Virus record (IMG/VR): IMGVR_UViG_3300034351_000048
Coordinates: 16,225-80,224 of that record
Origin: a virus
Strand: one strand, 5' to 3'
DNA length: 64,000 nt
The position numbers and the translations under genes are program-made. Position 1 is the stretch's first letter. Each line of letters starts with the position of its first letter. This document shows, in pieces, positions 895 through 58,192 of the stretch. Under the pieces are notes generated by a model. That model did not search any database. It was not told the origin of the DNA and saw nothing but the letters and a program-made list of their open reading frames with translations.

Positions 895-1644
895 TTATTT
901 TTTGTATTCTTTGGCTACTTTCTTTCGTATATATTCAAACCCTTTTTTAGTAACTAAAGTTACGGGTTTATTTCCAACTTCTTTAATCATTTTCTCTTTA
1001 ACTTTGAAATATCCAAGTTCAATATAAGGTTGTTTAGGAACATTTGAACCATTCAGCATAAACAATATCTCTTCTTCTCTTAAGAACTTGAATAATCTTA
1101 CAACTCCAATATCAATGCCTTTACTACTTAACAACTTTGCAACTTCATTCATAGTCATTAAATTTTCATCATTCATAAAATCGTCGTAAGAATTTGCTTT
1201 TGGTAAAAGAACTTGTTTCTCAGCTTCTAATTTTTCATTTTCAAGTGCTAATCTTCCAGCTTCTAAGAGGGCTTCGGCATAGGATTGTGGAATGTTATAT
1301 TGTTTTTCTTGTATTTCTTTTAATTTAAAATAACTTTTAACAAGTTTATTATACACATCCCATGCTTCGGATGTACCAATACTTTTAGCGTGTTTCAAAG
1401 CTCCTGATTCTGTCCATAAGTATATAGGTCTTTGAGAATTCTCACTATTCGAAAATTTCGAATATTCTTTATTGGACTTAGAAATAAGTATATAATCGAT
1501 GTTTTCAGTATATTGATTTTTATTATTATTGAAATTTTGTTGGATTTTTATTGGTTTAACACCATAAAATTCTGCTAATTCTTTAGTTGTTAAGACTATT
1601 TTTTCTTTATATTGTTTTTGATTTAATTTTGTTAGGTCTGTCAT
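895..1644 (-). CDS. Phage antirepressor, ORF6N N-terminal plus KilAC (ANT) C-terminal domain
   Basis: The 249-residue protein opens with an ORF6N-type DNA-binding domain (about residues 10-110; motifs LTTKELAEFYGV and PIYLWTESGALKHAKSIGT) followed by a linker helix and a KilAC domain (about 140-249; MTMNEVAKLLSSKGI, RLFKFLREE, TKKGFEYI). Proteins of this type relieve repression or set the lysis-lysogeny choice, but the target here is unknown. The N-terminal 110 residues are a close paralogue of the gene at 36144-36914. Translation is predicted to be controlled by the structured leader at 1645-1769; the start follows GGAGT inside that leader. Confidence 0.9.
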   Translation of the reverse strand: MTDLTKLNQKQYKEKIVLTTKELAEFYGVKPIKIQQNFNNNKNQYTENIDYILISKSNKEYSKFSNSENSQRPIYLWTESGALKHAKSIGTSEAWDVYNKLVKSYFKLKEIQEKQYNIPQSYAEALLEAGRLALENEKLEAEKQVLLPKANSYDDFMNDENLMTMNEVAKLLSSKGIDIGVVRLFKFLREEEILFMLNGSNVPKQPYIELGYFKVKEKMIKEVGNKPVTLVTKKGFEYIRKKVAKEYKK

Positions 1645-1769
1645 AATTAGACTCCATCAACTATAAAAAACGCTCATTCACCAAAGGTAAACGTAACCAC
1701 AGCATTTAAATATAGTTAATGGATCAAAGAGGGTGGTTATTTCTCTTAAATCCATTAAAATAACTATAC
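1645..1769 (-). ncRNA. c4-like structured antirepressor leader 1 (stem, pseudoknot, RBS-sequestering strand)
   Basis: Minus strand. The predicted transcript starts 1-2 bases before a long stem: 5' strand 1768-1743, loop 1742-1732, 3' strand 1731-1711 (blocks TAATGGAT/ATCCATTA, AAGAG/CTCTT, TATAGT/ACTATA). Loop bases TAACCAC (1739-1733) are exactly complementary to GTGGTTA (1700-1694). The 3' strand TCCATTAACTATA (1723-1711) can also pair over 13 bases, with one G-U, to TATAGTTGATGGA (1665-1653), which carries the ribosome binding site. A small hairpin TTTACC/GGTGAA lies between. Structure is read from the sequence; function is inferred by analogy to P1/P7 c4 RNA. Confidence 0.75.
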
Positions 1770-1775
1770 AAATAA

Positions 1776-1803
1776 AATATAACATATTTATTTTAAAAGT
1801 CAA
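1776..1803 (-). promoter_or_regulatory. Promoter of antirepressor leader 1
   Basis: -35 TTGACT at 1803-1798, 16-base spacer, -10 TATATT at 1781-1776. The -35 hexamer overlaps the TGA stop of the upstream gene. The expected start near 1769 places the leader stem at the very 5' end of the RNA, as in leaders 3 and 5. Confidence 0.75.
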
Positions 1804-2093
1804 ATATTTAAGTTTAATTTTTTGAACCTCTCATCATTTATAACTTTATTTAGAGCTATTTTAAATAGCCTTGTAACATTCGATTTGTTACATTTTAAGA
1901 CCTTACTTATTCGAACATTCGAGTAATTTTCAAATACACGTAATCCGAATGCTAATTCTTGTTTTTCACTTAACTTTTCATCAATAATATCCTGAATTGT
2001 ATGCTTATTTGTTTTATCTTTGAAAAGTTGTCTTATTATATCAATTTTTTTTAATGTGCTTAAATTTTCCATGTTTTCTAACGTATTTTCCAT
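1800..2093 (-). CDS. Sigma-70 region 4-like HTH protein, 97 aa
   Basis: After about 40 residues the sequence matches the pattern of sigma region 4: LSEKQELAFGLRVFENYSN, then a helix-turn-helix ISKVLKCNKSNVTRLFKIAL. It lacks region 2, so it is more likely a small DNA-binding regulator (ArpU or YlxM-like class) than a full sigma factor. ATG at 2093 follows AAAGGAGA. Last gene of the four-gene operon 3341 to 1800. Confidence 0.7.
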   Translation of the reverse strand: MENTLENMENLSTLKKIDIIRQLFKDKTNKHTIQDIIDEKLSEKQELAFGLRVFENYSNVRISKVLKCNKSNVTRLFKIALNKVINDERFKKLNLNI

Positions 2094-2112
2094 TAAAATA
2101 TATCTCCTTTTA

Positions 2113-2562
2113 TTAAATTTTAGACCATTTTATTAAGCCCGTTAAGAATTCTACTAATTCACTTCTTTTTATTATAATTTCACTTTCCCTACTGAAAGCC
2201 CCGGATGCTATTTTTATATATTCAGATTTTTTAGGTTCAAAAGAATCTATAAAAGTACCTCTTATGGATGTTCCCCATGATATTTTATCATATAAGAAAG
2301 GCATATTGACCATTATAATGTAATTTTTGTAGTTCTTTTCGTTTTCTATATAGTGAAAAGTATCCTTATAAAGAATAGCTTCTAATACTTCGAGCATATC
2401 TTTTGCTAACATCTCATCCATTTCTCCATCATAGGTAGTAAAATCAAAAATTTCATTCCCTAAATGTTCTAATTTGCTATAATCGTCACCACCAACACAT
2501 GGATCATTTACCCAATCTTGGTAGTTTTTTTCAAGCATTTCAATATAATCATTCTCACTCAT
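2113..2562 (-). CDS. Conserved-looking phage hypothetical, 149 aa
   Basis: An acidic cytoplasmic protein. The N-terminal third (DPCVGGDDYSKLEHLGNEIF followed by TTYDGEMDEMLAKDMLEV) looks like a conserved motif block of phage proteins of unknown function; the C-terminal half is alpha/beta. No membrane segment or signal peptide. Third of four genes in the leftward early operon. I assign no function. Confidence 0.65.
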   Translation of the reverse strand: MSENDYIEMLEKNYQDWVNDPCVGGDDYSKLEHLGNEIFDFTTYDGEMDEMLAKDMLEVLEAILYKDTFHYIENEKNYKNYIIMVNMPFLYDKISWGTSIRGTFIDSFEPKKSEYIKIASGAFSRESEIIIKRSELVEFLTGLIKWSKI

Positions 2563-2580
2563 ATAAACACCTTCTATAAA

Positions 2581-3060
2581 TCATATTTTTTTTAACGTTT
2601 CAGATAAAAAATCTTTAGTTTTTTCTTCTTTTGATTTTATTAGAGCTTCTTCTTTTTCCTTTTCTTCTATATATTCGTCATACAACTTTATTGATTCTGG
2701 AATAGCTTCTTTGAAGATATTAAGTATTGTTTCAATAGATTTTTCATTTAAATAAGGATTAATAGAAGATTCCTCCCAAAATTCTTCATGTTTATAATAT
2801 TCAGTAAATCCTTTATCTTCTACATTTAGTTTAACATCTGGATTAGTAGGGTTATAATAATTCATTATCAACTCAATTTTTTCATCTAATTGGAATTTAT
2901 ATACATATTTGTTACCACTACACTCTCTATAAAAGTCAAACATTCCTTTTTTATAATATGGATATGGTAAATGGCAATTATATTTTTTCAAATGTTTAGC
3001 TCTAAATTTATCAAAAACGGTTTTAATTATACTAACATAATTTATATCACTATTATTCAT
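2581..3060 (-). CDS. Hypothetical protein, 159 aa
   Basis: Charged protein with aromatic-rich N-terminal half and a Lys/Glu coiled-coil-like helix around residues 125-150. Its start overlaps the end of the upstream gene by 4 bases, so translation is coupled. No family recognised. Confidence 0.65.
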   Translation of the reverse strand: MNNSDINYVSIIKTVFDKFRAKHLKKYNCHLPYPYYKKGMFDFYRECSGNKYVYKFQLDEKIELIMNYYNPTNPDVKLNVEDKGFTEYYKHEEFWEESSINPYLNEKSIETILNIFKEAIPESIKLYDEYIEEKEKEEALIKSKEEKTKDFLSETLKKI

Positions 3061-3341
3061 TTAAGCCTCTCTATGAATTTATCTAAATACAATATTTTTT
3101 CATCAGATTCTAAAAAATCTATAAATTTTAGGTTCAAAACATCCAATTTTAAATTTAAACTATCGGTTTTATTATGGCATCCAAATACCTTGATCTCTAT
3201 ATCAAGTTTTTTATTAATAAATTCTAACCATATACTAAATTTCTTACATGGTTCTAACATAGGGATTTCATAAATTATAAAATTAAAATTTATCAAATTA
3301 TCTAAATTATATACAACATCATTAATAATAATGAATCGCAT
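3057..3341 (-). CDS. Hypothetical protein, 94 aa
   Basis: First gene of the leftward operon diverging from the late genes. ATG at 3341 follows TTGGAGG. Alternating hydrophobic beta-type sequence with two Cys (around residues 32 and 54). No recognisable domain. Confidence 0.65.
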   Translation of the reverse strand: MRFIIINDVVYNLDNLINFNFIIYEIPMLEPCKKFSIWLEFINKKLDIEIKVFGCHNKTDSLNLKLDVLNLKFIDFLESDEKILYLDKFIERLK

Positions 3342-3473
3342 TCAAACCTCCAAAATTCATGAATATACTATAAAAATAATAAAAAATTTACAAAAATACA
3401 AAAAATTTTACAAAAAAATTTGTTTTAATTTAAAAGTGTTATTATTTTAATATATATAGTTAAAGGAATTTTA
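3342..3473. promoter_or_regulatory. Divergent early/late intergenic region with possible late promoter element
   Basis: 132 AT-rich bases between divergent operons. On the plus strand ATATAGTTAAA (3454-3464) sits just before the terminase gene, and the same 11 bases occur at 7904-7914 just before the protease gene. This may be a late promoter or start-site element. On the minus strand TTGTAA followed 15 bases later by TATAGT is a weak sigma70-type candidate. Confidence 0.4.
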
Positions 3474-5177: not shown

Positions 5178-5476
5178 TGAAATACAAATATTTTAGATAT
5201 ATAGAATCAGGTGTTATACAACCCCTTGATGATTTAGATAATATTAAAGAATTAAAGAAAGATAGGAATATAGAATTATTATCCACACACCAAATTCAAG
5301 AAGAAATTTATGAAGTTATAAAAGAAACAAGGTTATTGTATAAAATTAGGAATAAAAAGAAATTGCTTGAAACTTGTATTGAACGTGTTAATTTTTATGT
5401 AGGATTAGATTTTGATGAATTTGATAAAGAATTTTCATGTTTTTACAACTATATCGTATCTAAAATATACACGTAA
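5177..5476 (+). CDS. Hypothetical protein, 99 aa
   Basis: Starts on the terminase stop (TAATG overlap), so it is translationally coupled. Mostly helical and charged, no membrane segment. Small proteins in this position may take part in packaging, but nothing in the sequence proves it. Confidence 0.6.
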   Translation: MKYKYFRYIESGVIQPLDDLDNIKELKKDRNIELLSTHQIQEEIYEVIKETRLLYKIRNKKKLLETCIERVNFYVGLDFDEFDKEFSCFYNYIVSKIYT

Positions 5477-5541
5477 TTATTTTAAATTTTAAATTTATTA
5501 TAATTTTAATTATATTTATAAACAAAATAAAGGATGGAAAT

Positions 5542-7933: not shown

Positions 7934-8926
7934 ATGAGTAAAGCACTATTTAAATTATCCAATGTTGATATTCATGAAATTTCTGTTACAAAATCACCCG
8001 CAGTTGAGGAAGCTACAGTAATTGTAAGAAAATCTGATAATTCTATTCAAATAGAAACAAACATTATACATAAAAATGATAAAGGCCAAATATTTCAATA
8101 TGCATTAGTCCCAAATAAACCTGACAAACAAGGGGATGTAATAACCGATAGTGAAATAGAAAAAGCTACAGAGAGATTAAAGAAAACAATATTTGACGGT
8201 GGATTACGTATAGGCAAGGAACATACGGACTTTAACAATGATGTTGTGGATTATGCTTTTACAGAGTATGACGATTCAGGATTTATAGCAAAACATTATG
8301 GGTTTCCGGAAGATAAAATAGTTAAAGGTGCTATGATTGTTGGAATGCAATTAACAGAATTCGGTAAAAGTGAATTTGATAATGGGAATTTTAAAGGAAT
8401 TTCTATAGGTGGAATAGCAGAAAAAGAAGATATAGAAAAATCTATAAATAACAATTCTAATGATATAATAAAATCGTTATTATCTACAATTTTAGGTATA
8501 AAAACAGATATAAATTTAGAACAGTTAATAAAAAATGCTGTAAATGAACAAATAGAAATTTTAAAAAATGATAAAACAGATAAATCGGAGGTTAAAAAAT
8601 CTATGGCTGATGAAAATAAAGATCAAAAATTAGATGAAACAAAGACTGGAAATGAAGTTTCAAAATCTAATACAGATCCAACACAAGAAAAGTTGTTAGA
8701 GCTTGAAAAAAGCTACAATGAACAGGTGAACAATAACAAGATTTTAATGGATTCTATAACAGAATTGAAAGATATTGTTAAAAATCTTAGTGGCAAACTG
8801 GATACAAATATAGAAACTGTAGATAAATTAGCAAAAGCTAAGGGTGTATCTAAAACCAATGATCCTCAACCATTTGAAAAAATGTTCCAAAATGGTTTAT
8901 TCGGGGATGATGAAGATCAAAAGTAA
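7934..8926 (+). CDS. Prohead protease (XkdF/S78_2-like) fused to scaffold region
   Basis: 330 residues. The N-terminal 180 look like an XkdF-type serine protease: His in GKEHTDF (about 95) and Ser in FKGISIGG (about 155) are the likely catalytic residues. The C-terminal 150 are charged and coiled coil (ELEKSYNEQVNNNK), typical of internal scaffold, and end just before the capsid gene. The protease would process the scaffold and possibly the capsid during maturation. A strong internal start at 8603 probably makes the scaffold alone. Confidence 0.85.
   Translation: MSKALFKLSNVDIHEISVTKSPAVEEATVIVRKSDNSIQIETNIIHKNDKGQIFQYALVPNKPDKQGDVITDSEIEKATERLKKTIFDGGLRIGKEHTDFNNDVVDYAFTEYDDSGFIAKHYGFPEDKIVKGAMIVGMQLTEFGKSEFDNGNFKGISIGGIAEKEDIEKSINNNSNDIIKSLLSTILGIKTDINLEQLIKNAVNEQIEILKNDKTDKSEVKKSMADENKDQKLDETKTGNEVSKSNTDPTQEKLLELEKSYNEQVNNNKILMDSITELKDIVKNLSGKLDTNIETVDKLAKAKGVSKTNDPQPFEKMFQNGLFGDDEDQK
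8603..8926 (+). CDS. Putative nested scaffold protein from internal in-frame start
   Basis: Within the protease gene, GGAGG at 8587-8591 lies 11 bases before an in-frame ATG at 8603. Translation from there gives 107 residues (begins MADENKDQKL) containing only the coiled-coil scaffold. Phage lambda uses the same design, with Nu3 nested in C. The ribosome binding site is seen directly; use of the start is inferred. Confidence 0.6.
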   Translation: MADENKDQKLDETKTGNEVSKSNTDPTQEKLLELEKSYNEQVNNNKILMDSITELKDIVKNLSGKLDTNIETVDKLAKAKGVSKTNDPQPFEKMFQNGLFGDDEDQK

Positions 8927-8946
8927 GAGCAAAGGAGTTTTAAATT

Positions 8947-9873
8947 ATGGGTAATGTAGTAGATTTAAGAAAAGCGTTATCAACAGATAAACTTGGTACA
9001 TTGGGTGTTAGATCACCTGAACAGGCAAGAAGATTTATAGAAAAGCTTAGAGCTGAACCAACAACGTTACAATACGCAAATGTTGTTCAAATGAGTAATG
9101 AGAGTAGAGTTTTTAATAAATTAGATATAACAAGTAGATTTATAAAACCTGCTAATGAAGGTATAAGATTAAGTGATGGAGATAAAGTAGATCCCGCACA
9201 TAGCACTGTAACACTAACAACTTATAAATACATTGGTGAAATGGATATTACATATGAAACTATTGAAGATAATATCGCAAGAAACCAATTAATCCCACAA
9301 CTTAGAAGTTTAATTTCTAGAAAAGTTGCTGAAGATATTAGTGATTATGTTATGAATGGCGATACTACAAGTTCCGATGTTGAACTGAAAAGAATGAATG
9401 GGTTTTTGAAATTAGCTACTTCAAATGTATATGATTTAGTAAACAATCCTATTTCTTTAACACACTTTGATGGAGCTTTAGCTTTATTTCCTCTTAGATA
9501 TAGAACTCAATTAAGAAACTGTAAATGGATTTTACAACCAAGAACAAGAGATACATATATTTTAGGATTAACAAATGTAGATACAATGCTCGGTGATGAG
9601 GCAAGAAACACAAGATTAAACCCTAATCCTTTAGGTTATCCTATACAATTAGATTCTATTATCGATACTTATGCAAGTGGAAGTAATACAGACACAAGAG
9701 GTCTTTTTACAACACCTGAAAACATGTTAATAGGAATCTATAGACAATTTAATATTGATTTAATCGATGATAGACATAGAGAAGTGTTTACACTTCATGT
9801 AAGTGGTAGAGTTGGTTGTCAATACTTAGAAGAAGAAATGGTTGTTAAATTAAACAATATTCAAATTGCTTAA
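8947..9873 (+). CDS. Major capsid protein, HK97-fold
   Basis: 308 residues directly after protease-scaffold, the usual order. Contains an E-loop-like region with GIRLSDGDKVDPA (about residues 73-85), a spine helix RNQLIPQLRSLISRKVAEDI and C-terminal P-domain. No protease processing site can be named with confidence; the N-terminus is short, suggesting a separate scaffold, which fits the nested start upstream. ATG follows AAAGGAG. Confidence 0.8.
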   Translation: MGNVVDLRKALSTDKLGTLGVRSPEQARRFIEKLRAEPTTLQYANVVQMSNESRVFNKLDITSRFIKPANEGIRLSDGDKVDPAHSTVTLTTYKYIGEMDITYETIEDNIARNQLIPQLRSLISRKVAEDISDYVMNGDTTSSDVELKRMNGFLKLATSNVYDLVNNPISLTHFDGALALFPLRYRTQLRNCKWILQPRTRDTYILGLTNVDTMLGDEARNTRLNPNPLGYPIQLDSIIDTYASGSNTDTRGLFTTPENMLIGIYRQFNIDLIDDRHREVFTLHVSGRVGCQYLEEEMVVKLNNIQIA

Positions 9874-10186: not shown

Positions 10187-10187
10187 G

Positions 10188-35770: not shown

Positions 35771-36144
35771 TATTTATTCTCCTTATTTGAAATCTTTTCC
35801 ATAAAATTTTCTAATACACTTTTACATATAAATAACATATCGTTTTGTGTATAAAAATCTTCGTAAAATTTGATTTTTATTTTTCTTATTTCGACAAATT
35901 TAGATAAATTCTCATCTTCATAAATATTTTCTATAATTTCAAAATGTGAATCATTTATATCTATAAATCCATGACTGAATATGATTTCATATGATTTCTC
36001 ATTTTCATAAAAATATTCTAAATATAAATATTGAGCTTTATCAGAAAAAGACATATCTCTTTCTATCTTAATATTTGGGTTATATTTATATATTATATTT
36101 CTGAATTCATTTTTTGTCTTATGTATAAAATCTAAATTATCCAT
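35770..36144 (-). CDS. Hypothetical protein, 124 aa
   Basis: Soluble alpha/beta protein with start overlapping the antirepressor stop by one base, so it is translated with it. It probably shares the regulation of the antirepressor. No recognised domain. Confidence 0.6.
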   Translation of the reverse strand: MDNLDFIHKTKNEFRNIIYKYNPNIKIERDMSFSDKAQYLYLEYFYENEKSYEIIFSHGFIDINDSHFEIIENIYEDENLSKFVEIRKIKIKFYEDFYTQNDMLFICKSVLENFMEKISNKENK

Positions 36145-36914
36145 TATCGATTCTCCTTACCGAATAATTCAGAAGCTAAATCATACAAATCTTTTAATTT
36201 ACCATTTTGATCTATAATATCTAATTTTGTTAATTTACCTGTTTCTTTTTGTTTTCTTTCTCTTGCGTATACATCAAAATGATATCTATACTTGAACTGT
36301 AAATATAACTTTTTCCAAGTATCATGCATACTCAAATATTTAGTTTGAGCGTATGTTCTAACAATAAGATTAATTTTTGATCTTGTAGTTAATTCATTTG
36401 CATTGTCATGAGAAAGGGGTAATTCATTAAAAGTATTCTCGTTTTCTTCCTGAACTTGTTTTATAGAATTTACATCTTCTTGTAATTTTAGCATGTTTTC
36501 TTCATGTTCAACTAATTTATTTACACAAGCTTGTAAAGCATATATATTAGACAAATCAGGCCTTTCTATTTGTTTTTCTTGTATTTCTTTTAATTTAAAG
36601 TAACTTTTAACAAGTTTATTATAAACATCCCATGCCTCAGGAGTCCCAATACTTTTAGCGTGTTTTAAGGCTCCTGATTCTGTCCATAGATATATAGGGC
36701 GTTTTCCATTTTTGTTATCTTGAAATTCACGATAACTATTATCACTAAATGATATAATCAAATAATCAATATTTTCAATATATTTCTCATTGTTTCTATT
36801 AAAATTGTAACTTATAATTTTTGTATCAACACCATAAAATTCTGCTAATTCTTTAGTTGTTAATACAATAGTGTCATTATATTGTTTTTGATTTAATTTT
36901 GAAATGTCGGTCAT
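36144..36914 (-). CDS. Phage antirepressor, ORF6N plus ORF6C domains
   Basis: Start chosen at 36914 (begins MTDISKLNQK) because the ATG at 36947 lies inside the leader and the ribosome binding site AATAGGAGT is 10 bases before 36914. The N-terminal domain (LTTKELAEFYGVDTK, PIYLWTESGALKHAKSIGT) is paralogous to 895-1644. The C-terminal domain (LTTRSKINLIVRTYAQTKY, WKKLYLQFKYRYHFD, LYDLASELFG) is ORF6C instead of KilAC, a domain swap. Probably expressed from the tRNA promoter at 37280-37308 through leader 2. Confidence 0.9.
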   Translation of the reverse strand: MTDISKLNQKQYNDTIVLTTKELAEFYGVDTKIISYNFNRNNEKYIENIDYLIISFSDNSYREFQDNKNGKRPIYLWTESGALKHAKSIGTPEAWDVYNKLVKSYFKLKEIQEKQIERPDLSNIYALQACVNKLVEHEENMLKLQEDVNSIKQVQEENENTFNELPLSHDNANELTTRSKINLIVRTYAQTKYLSMHDTWKKLYLQFKYRYHFDVYARERKQKETGKLTKLDIIDQNGKLKDLYDLASELFGKENR

Positions 36915-37022
36915 GTTAAGACTCCTATTAAATAAAATATCATTCATTATAAAATGAAAGGGGATAAAAATTTCATTTAATAGGATTAGAGAATTATCCC
37001 GGTTTCCTAATCCTATTAAAAA
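36915..37022 (-). ncRNA. c4-like structured antirepressor leader 2
   Basis: Minus strand. Perfect 14-bp stem TTTAATAGGATTAG (37020-37007) with CTAATCCTATTAAA (36989-36976). Loop core GGGATAA (37000-36994) is complementary to TTATCCC (36967-36961). The 3' strand piece TCCTATTAAA can alternatively pair, 10 exact bases, with TTTAATAGGA (36932-36923) carrying the ribosome binding site. Same architecture as leaders 1, 3 and 4 with different sequence. A hairpin TCATT/AATGA lies between. Confidence 0.8.
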
Positions 37023-37033: not shown

Positions 37034-37080
37034 TAAACCCCGAAGTATATAGATCGTAAATGAGGTGGTATCGGGGTTTA
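37034..37080 (-). terminator. 10-bp hairpin between tRNA-Leu and leader 2 (terminator or regulatory hairpin)
   Basis: TAAACCCCGA/TCGGGGTTTA forms a perfect 10-bp stem with a 27-base loop. On the minus strand it is followed by ATTTTAC, a weak U tract. The loop carries, on one strand or the other, AGATCGTAA/TTACGATCT, exactly the 9 bases around the loop partner of leader 4 (57349-57357). It may be a partial terminator, a processing site or a decoy for leader 4. Confidence 0.5.
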
Positions 37081-37136
37081 TACTAAAAAATATTAAAGGA
37101 GATCAAATGAAAAAATTAATTTTCAATATTAGAAAA

Positions 37137-37220
37137 TGCGAAGTAAAGGAATCGAACCTTCAAGCTCTTACGAGCGGCAGATTTTAAGTCTGTTGCGTTT
37201 ACCTGTTTCGCCAACCTCGC
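37137..37220 (-). tRNA. tRNA-Leu (anticodon UAA)
   Basis: 84 bases on the minus strand: acceptor GCGAGGT/ACTTCGC, D arm GCG/CGC with GG in the loop, anticodon loop CTTAAAA (UAA), class II variable arm GCTC/GAGC, T arm GAAGG TTCGATT CCTTT, discriminator A, no encoded CCA. Position 27-43 is a mismatch. It leads the transcript of leader 2 and the ORF6N/ORF6C antirepressor. Confidence 0.9.
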
Positions 37221-37279
37221 AAAATTACCACTTAACGTGGTAAAAACAATTTGCCAAAAAGTATTTTTATCATAATTTA

Positions 37280-37308
37280 AATATACTAAATTAGATTAAA
37301 ACAGTCAA
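37280..37308 (-). promoter_or_regulatory. Promoter of tRNA-Leu and the minus-strand antirepressor operon
   Basis: Minus strand TTGACT (37308-37303), 17-base spacer, TATATT (37285-37280). No better promoter is seen between the tRNA and leader 2, so the antirepressor probably depends on this one. Confidence 0.75.
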
Positions 37309-39061: not shown

Positions 39062-39089
39062 TTGACTTTTTTAAATTTATTGTTATATT
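39062..39089 (+). promoter_or_regulatory. Promoter upstream of a possible small RNA
   Basis: TTGACT (39062-39067), 16-base spacer, TATATT (39084-39089). It is 220 bases before a second promoter and no gene starts between them, which suggests a non-coding transcript. Confidence 0.65.
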
Positions 39090-39095: not shown

Positions 39096-39285
39096 TATAT
39101 TATTTATCATAGATTAATTAATTGCTTCCCATAACCTCTTTTAAAAAGAATTATGAGGAGTTGGAATTCAAAATCAATATCTTCAATAGAAGAAATAATT
39201 TGCTTTACATGCCTTTTATATGAGCTATGGTCGGAACTCATATGATAAAAATCTAAACACCTCTTAATTTTTCAAATAAAATTAC
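39096..39285 (+). ncRNA. Candidate small RNA with three hairpins
   Basis: About 190 bases without a credible gene, behind its own promoter. Three hairpins: CATAA...TCTTT/AAAGA...TTATG, then TCTTC AATA GAAGA, then TTATATGAG/CTCATATGATAA with a loop containing TATGGTCGG. Loop bases TATGG can pair with CCATA in the first hairpin, and GTCGG matches the loop partner of leader 3. No clear terminator. Function unknown. Confidence 0.4.
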
Positions 39286-39319: not shown

Positions 39320-39442
39320 GTATAAACTAAAAATTAACCAGATTAAGATATATACCGACTTTCTTAATCTTGTTAGTTTATATGTTGTCGGTACATCCAC
39401 CTTTGGTGGGTGAACATATTTTCTAACAAGGTGATAAAAACC
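39320..39442 (+). ncRNA. c4-like structured antirepressor leader 3
   Basis: Stem: TAAACTAA (39323-39330) and AACCAGATTAAGA (39336-39348) pair with 39362-39380 with one mismatch and a 5-base bulge. Loop core TACCGAC (39353-39359) is complementary to GTCGGTA (39387-39393). The 3' strand CTTGTTAG (39369-39376) is also complementary to CTAACAAG (39423-39430), next to the ribosome binding site AAGGTG. A hairpin CCACC TTT GGTGG follows the pseudoknot. Confidence 0.8.
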
Positions 39443-40126
39443 ATGTCAAATTTAATAAAAATAACAAATAACATCTCAATTGAAGAAATACTCTACAAAG
39501 GACAAAGAGTATTAACTTCAAAGCAACTTGCCGAAATTTACAATTGTAATGAAAGGCAAATCCGTCAAAACTTTAATAATAATAAGGATAAATTTATTGA
39601 AGGTAAACATTATGTTAAGCTTATTGGAGAAGATTTAAAAGAATTTAAGAAAGATATTAAAACAAAAAATTTAGTAAATAAATACACACCTGAATTAAAT
39701 TTATTCACTTTGAAAGGTTGCTTATTACAAAGTAACTTCATTACATCTATCAATGATAAAAATTTACAGTCTATTTATAAATATTTTGGGGTTGAAAATA
39801 ATCTTACAATAGGTAATTCTATTCAAAGAACAGAGTATTATTATTTAGATGAACTTAGAAAGGCTTTCGATGGAATATTTGATATAACTTCACAATTGAC
39901 TATAGGAATGTATAGAATAGATTATTACATACAGAAATACAATATAGCAATAGAATGTGATGAAAACAATCATAACGATAGAGATAGAGACTATGAAATA
40001 CAAAGAGAAAAGTTTATAAAAAAAGAATTAGGTTGTAAAATTATACGATTTGATCCTAAATTTATATCTATTGGAGAATTAATAAATAAAATCTTATGTG
40101 CTATAAAGGAGATGGATAATGAATAG
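39443..40126 (+). CDS. ORF6N domain fused to a DUF559-like PD-(D/E)XK nuclease domain
   Basis: Start at 39443 (AAGGTG before it); the ATG at 39410 is inside the leader. N-terminal ORF6N-like module (VLTSKQLAEIYNCNERQIRQ). The C-terminal half is a restriction-endonuclease-like fold: LTIGMYRIDYYIQKYNIAIE then CDENNHNDRDRDYEIQREKF and GCKIIRFDP, the D...E-x-D and His pattern of DUF559/Vsr-like nucleases. A regulator with a nuclease in place of KilAC is unusual. 8-base overlap with the next antirepressor. Confidence 0.75.
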   Translation: MSNLIKITNNISIEEILYKGQRVLTSKQLAEIYNCNERQIRQNFNNNKDKFIEGKHYVKLIGEDLKEFKKDIKTKNLVNKYTPELNLFTLKGCLLQSNFITSINDKNLQSIYKYFGVENNLTIGNSIQRTEYYYLDELRKAFDGIFDITSQLTIGMYRIDYYIQKYNIAIECDENNHNDRDRDYEIQREKFIKKELGCKIIRFDPKFISIGELINKILCAIKEMDNE

Positions 40127-40883
40127 TATTGTTAAAATAACTGAAAATATCATGATAGAGGAAATAATTTATAATGGCAAAAGAATGCTTACTTCAAAGC
40201 AATTAGCAAGTATCTATGATACAGAGTTGAAAAACATACAATATAACTTTAAATATCATGAAAATAAATTTATTGAAGGTAAGCATTATATTAAACTTTC
40301 TGGAAATGAATTAAAAGAATTTAAAGACTTACCTGGAATTTCAAGGTTAGTTTCTAAAAATACCCCCACGCTGGTTTTATGGTGTGAAGAAGGTGCCGTT
40401 TTAATGGCTAAAACTATAAACACAGATCAAGCATGGGAAGTTTCACATAAGCTTGTAAATTTTTATTTTGAAAATAAAGATCAAAAACAAATTCCTGAAA
40501 ACCTATCTAAACTTGAAATATTAAAGATGGCTTTGGAAAGTGAAGAAAAGAGAATAAAATTAGAAGAAGAAAATAAAAAATTACTTCCAAAAGCTGAATT
40601 TTACGATGCCGTTACACAAAGTGAAAACTGGACTTCTATTGGAAAAGTTTCAAAAATATTATCAATTAAGAATTTAGGTAGGAATAATTTATTCAAAAAA
40701 TTAAGAGAATTAGGATTATTAAGTCCTGAGAATGAACCTTATCAACCTGGTATTGAAGCTGGATATTTTAAAGTTATAGAAGAACCTTATGAAAAATCCG
40801 ACGGCAGTGTAGATATATACTACAAAACCGTCGTTTCTCAAAAAGGTATTGACTATATACTAAAAAAATTGAAAGAACAATAA
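40119..40883 (+). CDS. Phage antirepressor, ORF6N plus KilAC
   Basis: 254 residues, start behind AAGGAGATGG and overlapping the previous gene, so the two regulators are made together from leader 3. ORF6N part (MLTSKQLASIYDTELKNIQY, CEEGAVLMAKTINTDQAWEV) resembles its upstream neighbour; linker LEILKMALESEEKRIKLEEE is nearly identical to that of 48084-48854; KilAC part NWTSIGKVSKILSIKNLGRN and VSQKGIDYILKKL. Confidence 0.9.
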   Translation: MNSIVKITENIMIEEIIYNGKRMLTSKQLASIYDTELKNIQYNFKYHENKFIEGKHYIKLSGNELKEFKDLPGISRLVSKNTPTLVLWCEEGAVLMAKTINTDQAWEVSHKLVNFYFENKDQKQIPENLSKLEILKMALESEEKRIKLEEENKKLLPKAEFYDAVTQSENWTSIGKVSKILSIKNLGRNNLFKKLRELGLLSPENEPYQPGIEAGYFKVIEEPYEKSDGSVDIYYKTVVSQKGIDYILKKLKEQ

Positions 40884-43140: not shown

Positions 43141-43974
43141 ATGAGAGAATTTAATAGAAATGAGTTTGAATCTTTAGTAAAAATCCAAAACAATAATAAG
43201 TTACAAATAGATACTATAAATGCCCGTGATCTATGGGAATATTTGGAAGTGGATACTCGATTTAACGATTGGATAAAGAATCGTATTTATAAATATCAAT
43301 TTGTTGAATCACACGATTATATATGCCTTACTAAAAAAAAAGAAACGCGTAGAAATGACGGTCAAAAAGGCTCTGCAGTCATTACTGAATACCATATTTC
43401 TATTAATATGGCAAAAGAGTTGTCTATGGTAGAAAACAGTAATCTTGGTAGGGCAGTAAGATTATATTATATAGAATTAGAAAAAGAATTAAAAGAAATT
43501 AGAAATAATGATGATAGACAAACGGCTTTATGGGAAACAATAAGAGTAGAATCTAAAATAGAAAGAAAAGATTTTACTGATTCTATACAATCTTTAGTAA
43601 ATTATGCAATTGATATGGGTGCGAGTGATGGCGTTAAATGGTATTATAAGCACATTACAAGTGCTTTAAACAAAGCTCTTTTTAGAATAGAATCTTTACA
43701 AAAAGTTCATAAAAACCTAAGGGATGAAATAAGTTATATTCAATTAAGTCATATTATCACATTAGAAACTATCCTTAGAAATAGAATATTAGAAATGGTA
43801 AATATGGGGTTTGAATATAAGACAATATATGAGAATTTAAAGGAATTATGTATACAACAAGGAAAACTTATAGGCAAAGAAAAACCACGATATATTACAG
43901 AAAAAGAATACAAATCATGTATGAATAAAAAGGAATTAAAATTATATAGCAAAGATCAAAATTTATTATTTTAG
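43141..43974 (+). CDS. AntA/AntB-type antirepressor
   Basis: 277 residues. N-terminal AntA/AntB domain (TINARDLWEYLEVDTRFNDW, FVESHDYICL, EYHISINMAKELSMVE). The C-terminal domain (about 145-277: WYYKHITSALNKAL, LQKVHKNLRDEISYIQLSHI, EKEYKSCMNKKELK) matches that of the Rha-type gene at 57413, so the same tail is used with two different DNA-recognition heads. Start ATG behind AAAGAGG. Confidence 0.85.
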   Translation: MREFNRNEFESLVKIQNNNKLQIDTINARDLWEYLEVDTRFNDWIKNRIYKYQFVESHDYICLTKKKETRRNDGQKGSAVITEYHISINMAKELSMVENSNLGRAVRLYYIELEKELKEIRNNDDRQTALWETIRVESKIERKDFTDSIQSLVNYAIDMGASDGVKWYYKHITSALNKALFRIESLQKVHKNLRDEISYIQLSHIITLETILRNRILEMVNMGFEYKTIYENLKELCIQQGKLIGKEKPRYITEKEYKSCMNKKELKLYSKDQNLLF

Positions 43975-47976: not shown

Positions 47977-47982
47977 TAGTAT

Positions 47983-48083
47983 ATTACTACCTTAATATTT
48001 ATTTTATGGGGCTCATTATGTATTATGTAATGGGCTCTTATTTATAGGGTAGCAATAAAATATAAATATTGAGGTATTCAATT
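47983..48083 (+). ncRNA. Structured leader 5 of the Bro-N antirepressor
   Basis: A 10-bp hairpin GGGCTCATTA (48009-48018) with TAATGGGCTC (48028-48037) is enclosed by CTACC (47987-47991) pairing with GGTAG (48048-48052). The same 5' strand TACCTTAAT (47988 on) is complementary to ATTGAGGTA (48068-48076), the ribosome binding site, with flanking A/T pairing of about 15 more bases. The two foldings exclude each other. It differs in layout from leaders 1-4 but has the same logic. Confidence 0.65.
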
Positions 48084-48854
48084 ATGCATAACAATTCTAT
48101 CCAATTATTTAATTTCCAAGAAAATGAAGTAAGAACATTTACGGATGAAAACAATAATATATGGTTTTGTTTAAAAGATATTTGTGATATTTTAGAGTTA
48201 AGTAATCCAAGAAAAGTAGCTTCCGATTTAGACAAAGACGACGTAACTATTAGTTACGTAGGGGTGAAAACAGGCGTGAAAAAGGATGGAACAGATGCTG
48301 TTCAAAATATTGAAATGAACTTTATAAATGAGAGCGGTTTATATCAAGTAATATTCAAAAGTCGTAAACTTATAGCTAAGAAATTTAGTAAATGGATAAC
48401 AAGTGAAGTAATCCCATCTATTAGAAAAACGGGTCAATACGGCATAGAGAACTTATCAAGATTAGAAATTCTTAAAATAGCATTAGATAGTGAAGAAAAG
48501 AGACTACAATTAGAAGAAGAAAACAAAAAATTGCTTCCAAAAGCACAGATTTTTGATGATTTTCTTGAAAGTATTAATACGATTAGTGTTGGAGAATTAG
48601 CGAAATTATTATGTAAAAATGGTTATAATACAGGTCAAAAAAGATTATTCAAATTTTTAAGAGAAAATAAAATTCTTATGGAAAAAGATAACCTCCCCTA
48701 TCAAGAATATATAGACAGGGGTTATTTTGAGGTATCTACTTTCATAATTAATCATACACATAGTAATTACAAAGAGACTAAACCACAAACTAAAGTTACA
48801 AAGAAAGGTTGTTTGTTTATACGGAATTTATTTATTAAAGCAACTTCTATGTAA
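48084..48854 (+). CDS. Bro-N plus KilAC antirepressor
   Basis: Start ATG 48084 behind TGAGG; the TTG at 48069 is in the ribosome binding site. N-terminal Bro-N domain (FTDENNNIWFCLKDICDILE, FINESGLYQVIFKSRK, FSKWITSEVIPSIRKTGQYG), linker LEILKIALDSEEKRLQLEEE shared with 40119-40883, and KilAC (TISVGELAKLLCKNGYN, KRLFKFLRENKIL, TKKGCLFI). 256 residues. Confidence 0.9.
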   Translation: MHNNSIQLFNFQENEVRTFTDENNNIWFCLKDICDILELSNPRKVASDLDKDDVTISYVGVKTGVKKDGTDAVQNIEMNFINESGLYQVIFKSRKLIAKKFSKWITSEVIPSIRKTGQYGIENLSRLEILKIALDSEEKRLQLEEENKKLLPKAQIFDDFLESINTISVGELAKLLCKNGYNTGQKRLFKFLRENKILMEKDNLPYQEYIDRGYFEVSTFIINHTHSNYKETKPQTKVTKKGCLFIRNLFIKATSM

Positions 48855-49462: not shown

Positions 49463-49463
49463 A

Positions 49464-50091: not shown

Positions 50092-50101
50092 GAGATTAAA
50101 A

Positions 50102-50554: not shown

Positions 50555-50566
50555 GGAGAATTAATT

Positions 50567-52686: not shown

Positions 52687-52694
52687 GATATAAT

Positions 52695-53383: not shown

Positions 53384-53392
53384 GGAGATTTT

Positions 53393-54028: not shown

Positions 54029-54029
54029 T

Positions 54030-54761: not shown

Positions 54762-54777
54762 AATAAAGGAGATTTTT

Positions 54778-56481
54778 ATGAATATTGTATCAATCAACGA
54801 ATTAAAGTCTTATGTTAATATTTTAGATGTTGTTTCAGATTATGTTTTTGATATACAAAAGATAGGGAAAGATTATAAATGTATATGCCCTTTCCATAAT
54901 GAAAAGACACCCTCATTTATTATAAGCCCTGAAAAGAATTTATATAATTGTTTTGGATGTGGGGAAAGTGGCGATGCTTTTACTTTTGTGATGAAACACG
55001 AGAATTGCTCTTTTATAGAAGCTTCTAAAATAATAGCAAGATACTACAACTTAGAATTAGATATAAAGGTATCTAAAACTAATGAACTTAAGAAAATATA
55101 TTATAGAATAAATGAATTAGCTATGAACTATTTCCACGATAGTTTAATAGAAGATTATAAAGAAGCTATTAATTATTTAAAGGATAGAGCCTTGCATCTA
55201 TCAATTCCTACACAAAAAATAGGATATTGTGATAATAATTCAGATGGGTTGTATTTATATTTAAAAAATCATGGTATTGAAGATAAATATATTTTTAATT
55301 CTGATATTTTATACAAAAAAAATGATTATATTTATTCAAAGTTTCATGATAGGATAATATTCCCTATAAGAGATAAAAACAAAAATGTTATAGCGTTTAT
55401 TGGTAGAACTATTGATGAAAATACCCAACCAAAATATTTACATTCTAAAGATACTATATTTTTTAGAAAATCTGAAATGTTTTATAATATAGAAAGTGCT
55501 AATTTAAAGGATTATGTTATTATAACAGAGGGGAATATAGATACATTAAAAATCAAACAAAAAAGTGATTTTAATGTTGTCAGTTGTTTAGGAACTAAAA
55601 TATCAGATTACCAACTGAAATATATTAAAAAACATTATGAAAAAGTATACTTAATATTTGATTCAGACAAAGCGGGTAAAACTGCGATGTTTAACCTTGT
55701 TGATTTATTTTATAAATACGGAATATCTTTATATATTGTTGATTTAGGGGAAGGTTTAGACCCAGATAATTATATAGATAAATACGGTATAGACCTACTT
55801 AAAATAAAAATATTCAATGAATCTATATCGGGCATACAATTTAAAATAAATTCTTATTTATCTAAATATGATGTAAAGGATTCTAATCAAAAGATAGAAT
55901 TTATAAAAAAAGTCATGAATTTTGGGAATAAATTAGATAAATTTTATCAACAAGAAATTTTACATATATTGTCAAAACTTTTAAATTTGAATAATGAAGA
56001 TTTAAATTACTATGCTTTTAAAAACACGTCAAAAAACACCTCAAATTTGAATGTTTCCAATGCAAGTAATACCAAAACACTTAGAAATGAAAAAGAGCTT
56101 AATTTGATATCAATTTTGTTGTATTATGAGGAATCTATTAATTTTTTAGATTCTATTAAAGAAAATCTGTTTAAAAATTTAGAATTTCGTAAAATCTTTG
56201 ATATCATGAAAGAAAATTTGGAAGAAAAATTAAAGATTGACGATATCTCATTTATTTTAGATAAAGATTTGAAAAAAGAAATATTTAAATTTGAAACAAA
56301 TGAACCAATAAGTAATGAAATTTTTAAACTGATTTACCAATTAAAATTAATGAATATTGATGAACAAATAAATGAATTAAGAGTAGAGAATCAAGAAACT
56401 AAAATAAAATTTGATATAAATAAATTACAATTACTTGATTTATACAAAGAAAGAGAAAGAATAGTAAAATTAATAGGATAA
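54778..56481 (+). CDS. dnaG: DNA primase, DnaG family
   Basis: 567 residues. CHC2 zinc ribbon CICPFHNEKTPSFIISPEKN with CFGCG (about 37-64), then the TOPRIM core with VIITEGNIDTLKI (about 245-257) and VYLIFDSDKAGKTA (about 290). The C-terminal region is helical and would contact the helicase. ATG behind AAGGAG. Confidence 0.95.
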   Translation: MNIVSINELKSYVNILDVVSDYVFDIQKIGKDYKCICPFHNEKTPSFIISPEKNLYNCFGCGESGDAFTFVMKHENCSFIEASKIIARYYNLELDIKVSKTNELKKIYYRINELAMNYFHDSLIEDYKEAINYLKDRALHLSIPTQKIGYCDNNSDGLYLYLKNHGIEDKYIFNSDILYKKNDYIYSKFHDRIIFPIRDKNKNVIAFIGRTIDENTQPKYLHSKDTIFFRKSEMFYNIESANLKDYVIITEGNIDTLKIKQKSDFNVVSCLGTKISDYQLKYIKKHYEKVYLIFDSDKAGKTAMFNLVDLFYKYGISLYIVDLGEGLDPDNYIDKYGIDLLKIKIFNESISGIQFKINSYLSKYDVKDSNQKIEFIKKVMNFGNKLDKFYQQEILHILSKLLNLNNEDLNYYAFKNTSKNTSNLNVSNASNTKTLRNEKELNLISILLYYEESINFLDSIKENLFKNLEFRKIFDIMKENLEEKLKIDDISFILDKDLKKEIFKFETNEPISNEIFKLIYQLKLMNIDEQINELRVENQETKIKFDINKLQLLDLYKERERIVKLIG

Positions 56482-56484
56482 TTT

Positions 56485-57141
56485 ATGAATTATATTTATA
56501 ATGATGATTGTTTTGAAGTAATTAATAATTTAAACTTAAACAATAAAAAAATATGCTTGCTCACGGATCCTCCTTATGGAATTTTAGGAGGTTCTAAATC
56601 TATAGGAGGTTCTAAATTATACCATGCTAATAATTATGATTGTAGTTGGGATAATAACAGATTGACGAAAGAACAAATTAATTTATTAATTTCTTTATCC
56701 AATAAGGCATTTATTTTTGGTTATAATTACATATCTGATTTATTACCTCCTACAAATTCTTTAATTGTATGGGATAAAAAGTGCAAAAATAATTGGTTTG
56801 ATAATTTTTCAGATGGGGAAATAATATGGACAAATATAAATACCCCATTAAGAATCTATAGGCATTTATGGATGGGGGCATTAAGAAAAGGTAAGAACAC
56901 CAAAAGAATACATCCTACACAAAAACCAGTAGAATTAATGGGTTGGATAATAGAAAATTTTACAAAAAATGATGATATAATATTTGACCCTTTTATGGGT
57001 TCAGGTTCTACTATAATTGCATGTATAGAATTAAATAGACAATATATAGGTATTGAAAAGAATAAACATTATTTTGATATAGCAAAAAATAGAATAGATG
57101 AATATAGATATAATAAAGATTCTCAAAATAACTTGTTTTAA
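56485..57141 (+). CDS. Beta-class DNA methyltransferase
   Basis: 218 residues. CLLTDPPYGILGG near the start and HPTQKPVELMGWI, IIFDPFMGSGSTIIACIELN near the end, in beta-class order (DPPY first). Intact, unlike the related gene at 52695. Its stop is 3 bases before a promoter-like TTGTAT. Modifies phage or host DNA, possibly to evade restriction. Confidence 0.85.
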   Translation: MNYIYNDDCFEVINNLNLNNKKICLLTDPPYGILGGSKSIGGSKLYHANNYDCSWDNNRLTKEQINLLISLSNKAFIFGYNYISDLLPPTNSLIVWDKKCKNNWFDNFSDGEIIWTNINTPLRIYRHLWMGALRKGKNTKRIHPTQKPVELMGWIIENFTKNDDIIFDPFMGSGSTIIACIELNRQYIGIEKNKHYFDIAKNRIDEYRYNKDSQNNLF

Positions 57142-57144
57142 ATT

Positions 57145-57172
57145 TTGTATTTTTTAATTTTATTGTTATATT
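57145..57172 (+). promoter_or_regulatory. Promoter of the tRNA-like gene and Rha leader
   Basis: TTGTAT (57145-57150), 16-base spacer, TATATT (57167-57172). The expected start, 7 bases on, is 57179, exactly the first base of the tRNA-like acceptor stem. Confidence 0.6.
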
Positions 57173-57178
57173 ATATAT

Positions 57179-57300
57179 AGAATAATAGCAGAATTGGCAA
57201 ATGCCTTAATTGAGATATAATCTAATTTGATAAAAAACGATTTTGGTTATATTGAGATTAAGCCTCTTTGAGGGTGGGGGTTCAAGTCCCCCTTATTCTT
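57179..57300 (+). tRNA. tRNA-Leu-like gene (probable GAG) with about 41-base insertion in the anticodon loop
   Basis: Acceptor AGAATAA/TTATTCT (7 bp), D arm GCA/TGC with GG in the loop, class II variable arm CCTC TTT GAGG, T arm GGGGG TTCAAGT CCCCC. The anticodon stem CTTAA/TTAAG encloses 51 bases in place of 7: 8-base direct repeats ATTGAGAT lie at both ends of a segment that folds as TATAATC/GGTTATA. Removing 41 bases gives the loop TTGAGAT, anticodon GAG. The discriminator would be T, odd for tRNA-Leu. Function as tRNA is uncertain. Confidence 0.65.
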
Positions 57301-57412
57301 ATAATAGGATTAGAAAACAAGATCGTTTCTCTAATCCTGTTAGAAATATTACGATCTCGTTTGTTTTAAATTAAAAATAATTCAAATGAATATTGTCTAA
57401 CAGGAGGTATTA
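57301..57412 (+). ncRNA. c4-like structured leader 4 of the Rha-type gene
   Basis: 12-bp stem AATAGGATTAGA (57303-57314) with TCTAATCCTGTT (57330-57341), one G-U. Loop core AGATCGT (57320-57326) is complementary to ACGATCT (57351-57357). The 3' strand TCCTGTTAGA (57335-57344) is complementary over 10 exact bases to TCTAACAGGA (57396-57405), which carries the ribosome binding site. Homologous in sequence to leader 2, with paired changes in both helices. The stem starts 3 bases after the tRNA-like 3' end. Confidence 0.8.
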
Positions 57413-58192
57413 ATGAAAGATAATATAATCAAATTAAATAAAGAAAATGAACCAATGACTACAAGTTTAATTATAGCTAAAGAATTCGGTAAACCGCATG
57501 ATGATGTTTTAAAAGCTATACGAAGCTTAAAATGTAGCGAGAAATTTAGAGTCGGTAATTTTACCGAGTCCTCTTATACTAATACCCAAAATAAAAAACA
57601 ACCTATGTATGAAATGAAAAGAGATGGATTTATGTTTTTAGTAATGGGTTTTACTGGTGATAAGGCTGCGGAGATTAAAGAAAAGTTTATATATGCGTTT
57701 AATGATATGTATACCTATATAAAACAATTAGAACAAAACAAATACAATGAACACTGGTTGGATATACGATTCAAAGGTAAATTATTACGATGTAGTTTAA
57801 CAGATGAAATAAAAAAGTTTGTTGAATATGCCAAAAGTCAAGGAAGCCAGCATGCTGAATTCTACTACATGGCAATAACAAAACTTGTAAATAATAAATT
57901 ATTTGGTGTAACTTCTTTAAATAAAATAGGTAAGAACTTAAGAGATTATTGTGATTTCGTTCAATTGGCACATATAACAACCGCGGAGAGTATAATAATT
58001 ACTACATTAGTAAATGAAATAGATAATGGAACCGTTTACAAAGAAATTTATGAAATTATAAGAAGTAAAATAGATGATTTTGGGTTGTTAATTCCTCAAG
58101 ATAAGCCTTCAAACATCCCACAAATTGAATACAATAAATGCTTATCTAAAAAGAAACAAAAAGAATTAGCTAATAGTAAATTATTAAATTAG
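57413..58192 (+). CDS. Rha-family phage regulatory protein
   Basis: 259 residues. N-terminal Rha domain (MTTSLIIAKEFGKPHDDVLK, NFTESSYTNTQNKKQPMYEM, MTGDKAAEIK-like FTGDKAAEIKEKFIYAFNDM). The C-terminal 130 residues match those of the AntA gene at 43141 (KNLRDYCDFVQLAHITTAES against KNLRDEISYIQLSHIITLET). ATG behind CAGGAGG, which lies in the leader. Rha proteins can block growth in unsuitable hosts; role here inferred as antirepressor-like. Confidence 0.85.
   Translation: MKDNIIKLNKENEPMTTSLIIAKEFGKPHDDVLKAIRSLKCSEKFRVGNFTESSYTNTQNKKQPMYEMKRDGFMFLVMGFTGDKAAEIKEKFIYAFNDMYTYIKQLEQNKYNEHWLDIRFKGKLLRCSLTDEIKKFVEYAKSQGSQHAEFYYMAITKLVNNKLFGVTSLNKIGKNLRDYCDFVQLAHITTAESIIITTLVNEIDNGTVYKEIYEIIRSKIDDFGLLIPQDKPSNIPQIEYNKCLSKKKQKELANSKLLN

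Follow-up and report, generated by a model that had tools for sequence, protein, structure and literature searches.

Candidate c4-like RNA switches with separate seven-nucleotide addresses ahead of five antirepressor genes in a virus contig

Introduction

The C4 RNAs of P1 and P7 (Rfam RF01695), like the leaders described here, sit upstream of antirepressor genes. In C4, and by prediction in the leaders, a variable hairpin-loop address (a') pairs with a site (a) located at the Shine-Dalgarno region (SD) or ahead of it, and a second segment (b') covers the SD, in the order a'-b' and a-b. Pairing of a hairpin loop with a site beside a sequestered SD is also known from the IncB/IncI repZ leader, which, unlike the present leaders, involves no antirepressor; there the pseudoknot activates translation in plasmid replication, and plasmid incompatibility depends on short loop sequences of the Inc antisense RNA. 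C4 acts in trans (PMC8546580), and one A. baumannii genome was reported to hold 21 C4-like sRNAs whose only difference from P1/P7 C4 lies in the 7–11 nt a' loop, so variable C4 addresses inside one genome are an already published idea and not a new one (PMC5320573). The Group 1 RNAs of that species resemble our leaders in being many per genome, with the target set by the a' loop, and in having proposed antisense RNA controllers; unlike our leaders, they have the canonical three-stem C4 fold and were described as sRNAs, not as phage antirepressor leaders (PMC5320573). In Salmonella prophage Gifsy-1, the IsrK-anrP leader of an antirepressor region likewise has two alternative folds, with silent or active translation, which are toggled by a small RNA of the same locus; unlike the present leaders, IsrK activates, works through an upstream ORF and has no loop/bulge address (PMC4825925).

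Here we analyzed a window of 64,000 nucleotides from a virus contig of 80 kb. A preliminary description had proposed that it carries several c4-like switches, each with its own address. The sequence bears this out, with five such leaders on the contig rather than four.

Results

Shared architecture of the five leaders

All five leaders contain a hairpin with a 7-nt address (a') in its loop and a complementary site (a) downstream, and the 3' arm of the hairpin (b') is complementary to two segments, the 5' arm opposite it and the SD region (Table 1). In each of them the a'·a pairing extends over exactly 7 bp and the target is framed as U[N7]C, while spacing is near-constant, with 24–32 nt between a' and a and 46–55 nt between a and ATG. 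The four loop/partner pairs reported before (loops TAACCAC, GGGATAA, TACCGAC and AGATCGT), all different, were each located; leader 5 had been missed because it lies outside the window. Genes of antirepressor families follow all five leaders (ORF6N+KilAC, ORF6N, ORF6N+DUF559, Rha and AntA). The starts regulated by leaders 2 and 3 are ATG 36914(-) and ATG 39443(+), whereas the mechanical ORF list had misplaced them at 36947 and GTG 39410. A pattern scan also gave TTGACT-N16/17-TATATT promoter matches upstream of leaders 1, 2 and 5.

Table 1. Leaders, their target regions and associated genes (window positions for leaders 1–4, contig position for leader 5)
Leader	Feature	Position	Strand	Remarks
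1	Promoter-like TTGACT-N16-TATATT	1776..1803	-	Pattern scan
1	Hairpin S	1711..1768	-	5' arm 1743-1768; a' TAACCAC 1733-1739; b' (3' arm) 1711-1731
1	Target a GTGGTTA	1694..1700	-	Exact 7-nt bulge of SD-sequestering hairpin (predicted)
1	Apical hairpin and SD region	1650..1693	-	Apical hairpin 1675-1693; b'-complementary SD region 1650-1665
1	Antirepressor gene 1, ORF6N + KilAC	895..1644	-	PF10543, PF03374
2	Promoter-like TTGACT-N17-TATATT	37280..37308	-	Upstream of tRNA-Leu and leader 2; pattern scan
2	tRNA-Leu(TAA)	37136..37221	-	Between promoter and leader 2
2	10-bp hairpin upstream of leader	37034..37080	-	Loop with ACGATCT (37051-37057), the leader-4 target address
2	Hairpin S	36976..37020	-	5' arm 37007-37020; a' GGGATAA 36994-37000; b' (3' arm) 36976-36991
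2	Target region	36920..36967	-	a TTATCCC 36961-36967; apical hairpin 36943-36959; SD region 36920-36932
2	Antirepressor gene 2, ORF6N	36144..36914	-	Start corrected
3	Promoter-like TTGACT-N16-TATATT	39062..39089	+	For RNA upstream of leader 3; pattern scan
3	7-bp hairpin ATATGAG/CTCATAT	39218..39243	+	a1 GGTCGG (39229-39234) in loop, complementary to leader 3 loop
3	Hairpin S	39331..39379	+	5' arm 39331-39348; a' TACCGAC 39353-39359; b' (3' arm) 39362-39379
3	Target region	39387..39433	+	a GTCGGTA 39387-39393 (7-nt bulge, predicted); apical hairpin 39394-39412; SD region 39423-39433
3	Antirepressor-like gene 3, ORF6N + DUF559	39443..40126	+	Start corrected
3	Second gene of operon, ORF6N + KilAC	40119..40883	+	Without leader of its own
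4	tRNA-like RNA	57179..57300	+	Acceptor, T and class-II variable arms; long hairpin in place of anticodon arm
4	a1 AAACGATTTTG	57235..57245	+	In extended anticodon arm of tRNA-like RNA
4	Hairpin S	57302..57344	+	5' arm 57302-57314; a' AGATCGT 57320-57326; b' (3' arm) 57330-57344
4	Target region	57351..57407	+	a ACGATCT 57351-57357 (bulge, 1-nt shift, predicted); apical hairpin 57358-57388; SD region 57396-57407
4	Antirepressor gene 4, Rha family	57413..58192	+	PF09669, phrog_2657
5	Leader ahead of AntA antirepressor gene	contig 9467	-	Rank 5 in start-codon scan

An initial, loose-helix scan found as many matches in shuffled DNA, and an energy-scored scan took its place. In this blind scan of the whole contig, the four leaders in the window took ranks 1–4 among 428 candidate start codons, followed at rank 5 by leader 5, and for each of leaders 1–4 none of 100 dinucleotide shuffles of its own sequence was as good. 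Chance complementarity in AT-rich leaders draws on the 27% GC content and on the frequency of lone 7-mers (1–13 expected per window). The ranks, the shuffles, the fixed spacing and the fixed 7-bp length refute it, and we give it practically no credence: the joint architecture, unlike lone 7-mers, is not common by chance. Moreover, a combined 7-nt-bulge test was passed by four of the five leaders here and by 0/162 other antirepressor leaders.

Alternative folds and their possible action

Site a is predicted as an exact 7-nt bulge of an SD-sequestering hairpin in three leaders and as a one-base-shifted bulge in another. In the predicted ON fold, b' is kept in the 5' hairpin and the SD is free; in the predicted OFF fold, b' lies on the SD and a is mostly shown as a 7-nt bulge. 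The two predictions differ by at most 3 kcal/mol in leaders 1–4. We consider that each leader is probably a c4-like RNA switch that holds its antirepressor untranslated. The a'·a pairing would drive the switch to OFF, whether in cis, in trans or both; in the trans version, the leader RNA may be freed by processing or premature termination, as is C4 in P1, and five different addresses would allow separate control of five antirepressor genes. Counted against the switch are the missing match to the C4 covariance model and the missing three-stem fold (see below), the lack of any terminator or proven cleavage site able to release a short RNA, and of any recognised integrase, partition gene or repressor in the contig, for which reason a prophage state is unproven.

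The pairing might in principle have the opposite effect, with a loop-target pseudoknot that retains b' within its own hairpin and leaves the SD open, like that of IncB/IncI repZ. A 7-bp second stem is of ordinary H-type pseudoknot size, and b' can stay on the 5' arm during a'·a pairing if the outer stem frays. The full-length stems of leaders 2 and 4, however, leave only ~8 nt to span 13–15 bp, and canonical C4, whose parts follow the same order, represses, so we judge activation unlikely.

A stronger competitor, possible although we do not favor it, is a set of bistable leaders working in cis only, where one RNA flips between the 5' hairpin (ON) and the SD hairpin (OFF), a'·a is an internal pseudoknot, and the state is set by timing, temperature or protein. 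It gains from the near-equal energies of the two folds in leaders 1–4, and every pairing is possible within one molecule. In leaders 4 and 5, and to some extent in leader 3, the predicted OFF fold also keeps a small hairpin that presents a', with a bulged, so that a'·a and b'·SD could coexist. On the other hand, C4 has the same part order and is trans-acting (PMC8546580), and leaders confined to cis would make little sense of the additional address copies at leaders 3 and 4 and of the tRNA-like RNA.

Upstream address copies and the tRNA-like RNA

These third, upstream copies (a1) recall C4, where one was present at all ten loci tested; none was found in the ~220–255 nt upstream of leaders 1, 2 and 5, which counts against a c4-like switch. 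Hairpins as good as that carrying the leader 3 copy arose in 4 of 2000 shuffles. The leader 4 copy, AAACGATTTTG, forms 11 contiguous pairs, including G-U, with the leader 4 loop (1/2000 shuffles equally good), and the leader 4 hairpin begins 2 nt past the tRNA-like RNA that contains it. Such copies would titrate the address loop and so relieve repression. The tRNA before leader 2 and the tRNA-like RNA adjoining leader 4 give only hints of possible RNase P processing to a short RNA.

ARAGORN assigns the tRNA-like RNA to tRNA-Leu(gag) with an intron. We rejected this assignment, as an insert of 51 nt is not among the known bacterial tRNA introns and the hairpin of the anticodon arm is uninterrupted.

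Address specificity

According to the earlier description, no loop is complementary to any downstream segment but its own. Energetically the own target is indeed the best, but strict uniqueness fails, since extra copies exist. The leader-4 target ACGATCT recurs in a hairpin loop before leader 2 (37051-37057, minus strand), where 121/2000 shuffles were equally good and the hairpin alone is not significant, and in a G-U-tolerant copy within the tRNA-like RNA; the leader-3 target GTCGGTA recurs within the Rha gene (57551-57557). In the 5x5 energy matrix, the diagonal is best in each row and column for both a'·a (cognate -9.2 to -12.1 kcal/mol, best non-cognate -7.0) and b'·SD (-15.3 to -23.2 against -12.5 kcal/mol), although cognate preference among unlike 7-mers is the chance expectation and compensatory change is the informative part.

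Comparison with the C4 family and search for relatives

The C4 covariance model gave no match for leaders 1, 2, 3 and 5 at E<=10 or for leader 4 at E<=5, whereas the RCS47 control scored 75.4 bits. The three-stem C4 fold is absent from the leaders, which are predicted to form one hairpin and an alternative SD hairpin, without the P1/P2 stems of C4. Furthermore, b' is the 3' arm of the hairpin rather than a linker; a and b are ~25–30 nt apart with a small hairpin between them rather than contiguous; a is mostly predicted as a 7-nt bulge; address and b' are both variable; and five leaders share one contig, ahead of differing antirepressor kinds. That they are nevertheless divergent true C4 members overlooked by the model is improbable, even with the order a1, a', b', a, b and the downstream gene families shared, and with some C4-like leaders (L027) likewise below the gathering score. 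It is well supported that the leaders work like c4 and not well supported that they are C4.

The order a'-b' / a-b is also that of the P1-type C4 of RCS47, in agreement with the published description (PMC5320573). Its P3 loop pairs GTCAAAGG at the SD, so that the opposite (nested) order considered for canonical C4 was wrong, and its linker pairs GAGGCTGCC just downstream. All ten canonical C4 loci tested have the order a1-a'-a, and their loop addresses, which differ, each match the target at the same locus. Related phages carrying different addresses had been anticipated: in the real C4 family, 15 C4-positive loci contained 8 different loop addresses that match the SD site of the same locus over a long stretch, and one contig has two of these. 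Protein searches of viral and genome collections and blastn of the leaders brought up no close relative of the present phage. A hairpin-pattern search gave five chance matches, all without the architecture. Because no related phage was found, there is no covariation across homologues, a further point against the switch.

Among other antirepressor leaders, those of Fusobacterium Fnu1/FNU2, Marinitoga and Clostridioides showed no structure of this kind. A Thomasclavelia leader was matched by 0/60 of its own shuffles and, in a second run, was better than all but 3/200. The Vibrio LP.2 Rha leader was better than 200 shuffles, yet its would-be target lies upstream of a likely promoter, and it was not accepted.

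Discussion

Taken as a whole, the earlier reading of an orthogonal c4-like address code is partly supported at the sequence level. We put forward only tentatively, as a doubtful extension, that the leaders form an RNA immunity code with several channels, built on a scaffold other than C4. In it, five hairpins would act in trans on five antirepressor mRNAs, each through its own 7-nt loop-to-bulge kiss, and a tRNA-shaped decoy presenting the address in a rebuilt anticodon arm would tune one or more of the channels.

As c4-like switches, the leaders would carry the C4 principle over to an RNA scaffold that Rfam C4 does not include, with five differently addressed copies in one contig ahead of different antirepressor types. 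Since the address spans exactly 7 bp and its frame is fixed, specificity is testable by a seven-letter swap. Tuning such a switch by an address copy within a tRNA-like RNA would be unusual. The canonical C4 loci surveyed carry several different addresses, each matched in three places (a1, a' and a), so that a code of immunity groups at the RNA level can be tested directly.

Candidate leaders on the contig

The DNA studied has a GC content of 27% and comprises bases 16225-80224 of an 80,224-base IMG/VR virus record, which carries myovirus genes (large terminase, portal, tail sheath, tape measure, DNA polymerase and DnaB helicase). No close relative emerged when IMG/VR and GTDB genomes were searched by protein pattern, and the best identity of the terminase to phages of the collection is about 23-26%. 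Nine antirepressor-type genes were recognised on the contig, and the leader set was read from the sequence of this one contig.

Antirepressor-type genes and associated RNAs (bare coordinates refer to the window, "contig" to the whole record)
Feature	Coordinates	Strand	Remark
ORF6N+KilAC gene	895-1644		
ORF6N gene	36144-36914		gene 2, corrected start ATG 36914
ORF6N+DUF559 gene	39443-40126		gene 3, corrected start ATG 39443
ORF6N+KilAC gene	40119-40883		
AntA gene	43141-43974		
Bro-N+KilAC gene	48069-48854		
Rha gene	57413-58192		
KilA-N gene	contig 610-1278		
AntA gene	contig 8667-9467	minus	start at 9467; downstream of leader 5
Leader 5 with its AntA gene	contig 8667-9626	minus	about 6.6 kb left of window; loop TGGGCAC, target GTGCCTA
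tRNA-like RNA	57179-57300		ends 2 nt 5' of leader 4 hairpin

Each leader score is the sum of three helices: the hairpin S, the pairing of its loop address (a') with a downstream site (a), and the pairing of the 3' arm of S (b') with the Shine-Dalgarno (SD) region, with energies from nearest-neighbour models without pseudoknots. The four loop/partner pairs of the preliminary description were all found at their loci, and leaders 1-4 score -40 to -41 apiece, matched by none of 100 shuffles of each. Among 428 start codons scored over the whole contig they occupy ranks 1-4, followed at rank 5 by leader 5 (-39.2); the best unrelated start below it scores -36.0. The scheme was devised after the four leaders were known, and leader 5, the other starts, the shuffles and the other loci played no part in setting it. 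Three further antirepressor genes (40119, 43141 and 48069) had leader scores not clearly better than those of their own shuffles. The Bro-N+KilAC leader (47980-48084, plus strand; ATG 48084) has a 13-bp complementarity, CCTTAATATTTAT/ATAAATATTGAGG, that spans the SD, and in addition a crossing CTACC/GGGTAG pair (equalled by 6 of 60 shuffles); it may be related to the switch in a simpler form.

TTGACT-N16/17-TATATT promoter matches lie immediately 5' of leaders 1 and 5 (N17 for leader 5), 5' of the tRNA-Leu preceding leader 2 and 5' of the RNA preceding leader 3. Five near-identical promoter-like sites, TTGACTTTTTATAAT...TATATT (contig 2788, 9709, 17002 on the minus strand, 53558 and 65463), have a likewise conserved spacer and may serve a phage regulator as a common operator. 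Sigma70 region-4 proteins are encoded on the contig.

Anatomy, predicted folds and specificity

In all five leaders a' pairs with a over exactly 7 bp, mismatched on either side (one of the seven pairs in leader 5 is G-U), and the target stands in the frame U[N7]C: U[GUGGUUA]C, U[UUAUCCC]C, U[GUCGGUA]C, U[ACGAUCU]C and U[GUGCCUA]C in leaders 1-5. The a'-to-a gaps are 32, 26, 27, 24 and 27 nt, and the distances from a to ATG are 49, 46, 49, 55 and 46 nt, respectively.

The segment from b' to the SD is predicted to form a long SD-sequestering hairpin (-18 to -29 kcal/mol), in which a is an exact 7-nt bulge flanked by two helices in leaders 1, 3 and 5; in leader 4 the predicted bulge is off by a single base. 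The target of leader 2 is unpaired solely in a slightly weaker fold (-17.4 vs -18.1). None of 162 other antirepressor leaders showed this combined bulge architecture. The predicted alternative partner of b' is its own 5' arm, which would free the SD. The gap between this ON fold and the OFF fold is 1-3 kcal/mol in leaders 1-4 and 9 kcal/mol, favouring OFF, in leader 5. Because the small a'-presenting hairpin is kept in the predicted OFF folds of leader 4, leader 5 and, in part, leader 3, a'-a and b'-SD pairing could coexist there; in those of leaders 1 and 2 the 5' part adopts other local folds. From this anatomy and the two predicted folds we infer that a'-a together with b'-SD pairing would repress translation.

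Cognate loop-target energies are -9.2, -9.6, -11.0, -11.5 and -12.1, and the strongest non-cognate value is -7.0; for b'-SD pairing they are -18.3, -16.7, -18.1, -15.3 and -23.2, and the strongest non-cognate value is -12.5 (leader 3 arm, leader 4 SD). The earlier proposal that each address is complementary only to its own target thus stands for the strength of pairing, but not as strict uniqueness: the leader-4 address recurs in a hairpin loop 5' of leader 2 (not significant alone, 121/2000 shuffles), and the 5' portion of Rha holds a small inverted repeat (CGGTAATTTTACCG) in which the leader-3 target GTCGGTA recurs (57551-57557). Cognate preference is expected anyway for unlike 7-mers; what is informative is that loop and target have changed together in five leaders with length, frame and spacing constant.

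Upstream copies and comparison with C4

The leader 4 loop is complementary to AAACGATTTTG (57235-57245) over 11 contiguous pairs including G-U, which 1 of 2000 shuffles equalled. This copy sits within the extended anticodon arm of the tRNA-like RNA (Rfam tRNA score 38.6 bits), which has intact acceptor and T arms, a class-II variable arm and a long hairpin in place of the anticodon arm, and for which ARAGORN's sole call is an intron-containing tRNA (51-nt intron). The leader 3 loop is complementary to GGTCGG (39229-39234), which lies within the loop of an upstream 7-bp hairpin (4/2000 shuffles equal). No upstream copy was found near leaders 1, 2 and 5.

A similar layout occurs with C4, the antisense RNA of phages P1/P7. 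In the P1-like phage RCS47 (Rfam C4 match, 75.4 bits), the P3 loop CCTTTGAC is complementary to a site at the downstream ORF's SD, GTCAAAGG, the linker GGTAGTCTC to the adjoining GAGGCTGCC, and a further address copy, TGTCAAAGG, lies 5' of C4. Rfam C4 is present at 17 of 20 AntA/Rha loci checked in IMG/VR. As the preliminary description had considered for related phages, C4 loop addresses do vary: 15 of the 17 gave 8 distinct ones, each with long complementarity to its own SD site, and they pair mostly weakly with targets of other loci, except for near-identical pairs such as CTCTGTAC/CTCTGTATC. The 59-kb contig IMGVR_UViG_2600255024_000001 has two canonical C4 RNAs (L144 and L145), which differ in address and precede separate AntA-type genes. 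All ten canonical C4 loci tested (L013, L119, L125, L143, L144, L145, L149, L160, L164 and L180) have an upstream address copy (per-locus shuffles as good, 0 to 20/600), which covaries with loop and target. In one A. baumannii genome, 21 C4-like RNAs are reported to differ in the a' loop, 7-11 nt long, that specifies the target (PMC5320573); separately addressed C4-type RNAs are therefore an already known kind. The Rfam C4 model does not match the leaders. Unlike C4, they have a single-hairpin scaffold, a b' of variable sequence that is a stem arm changing partners, and an a set apart from the SD and mostly bulged; five copies precede antirepressors of different kinds, and the set includes a tRNA-like RNA bearing an address copy.

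The main rival is switching in cis only, but upstream address copies are hard to make sense of in such an element. On that ground, and by analogy with the trans-acting c4 RNA (PMC8546580), released leader RNA may act in trans, and the upstream copies would relieve repression. The leaders most likely hold the antirepressors untranslated and would open under some condition.
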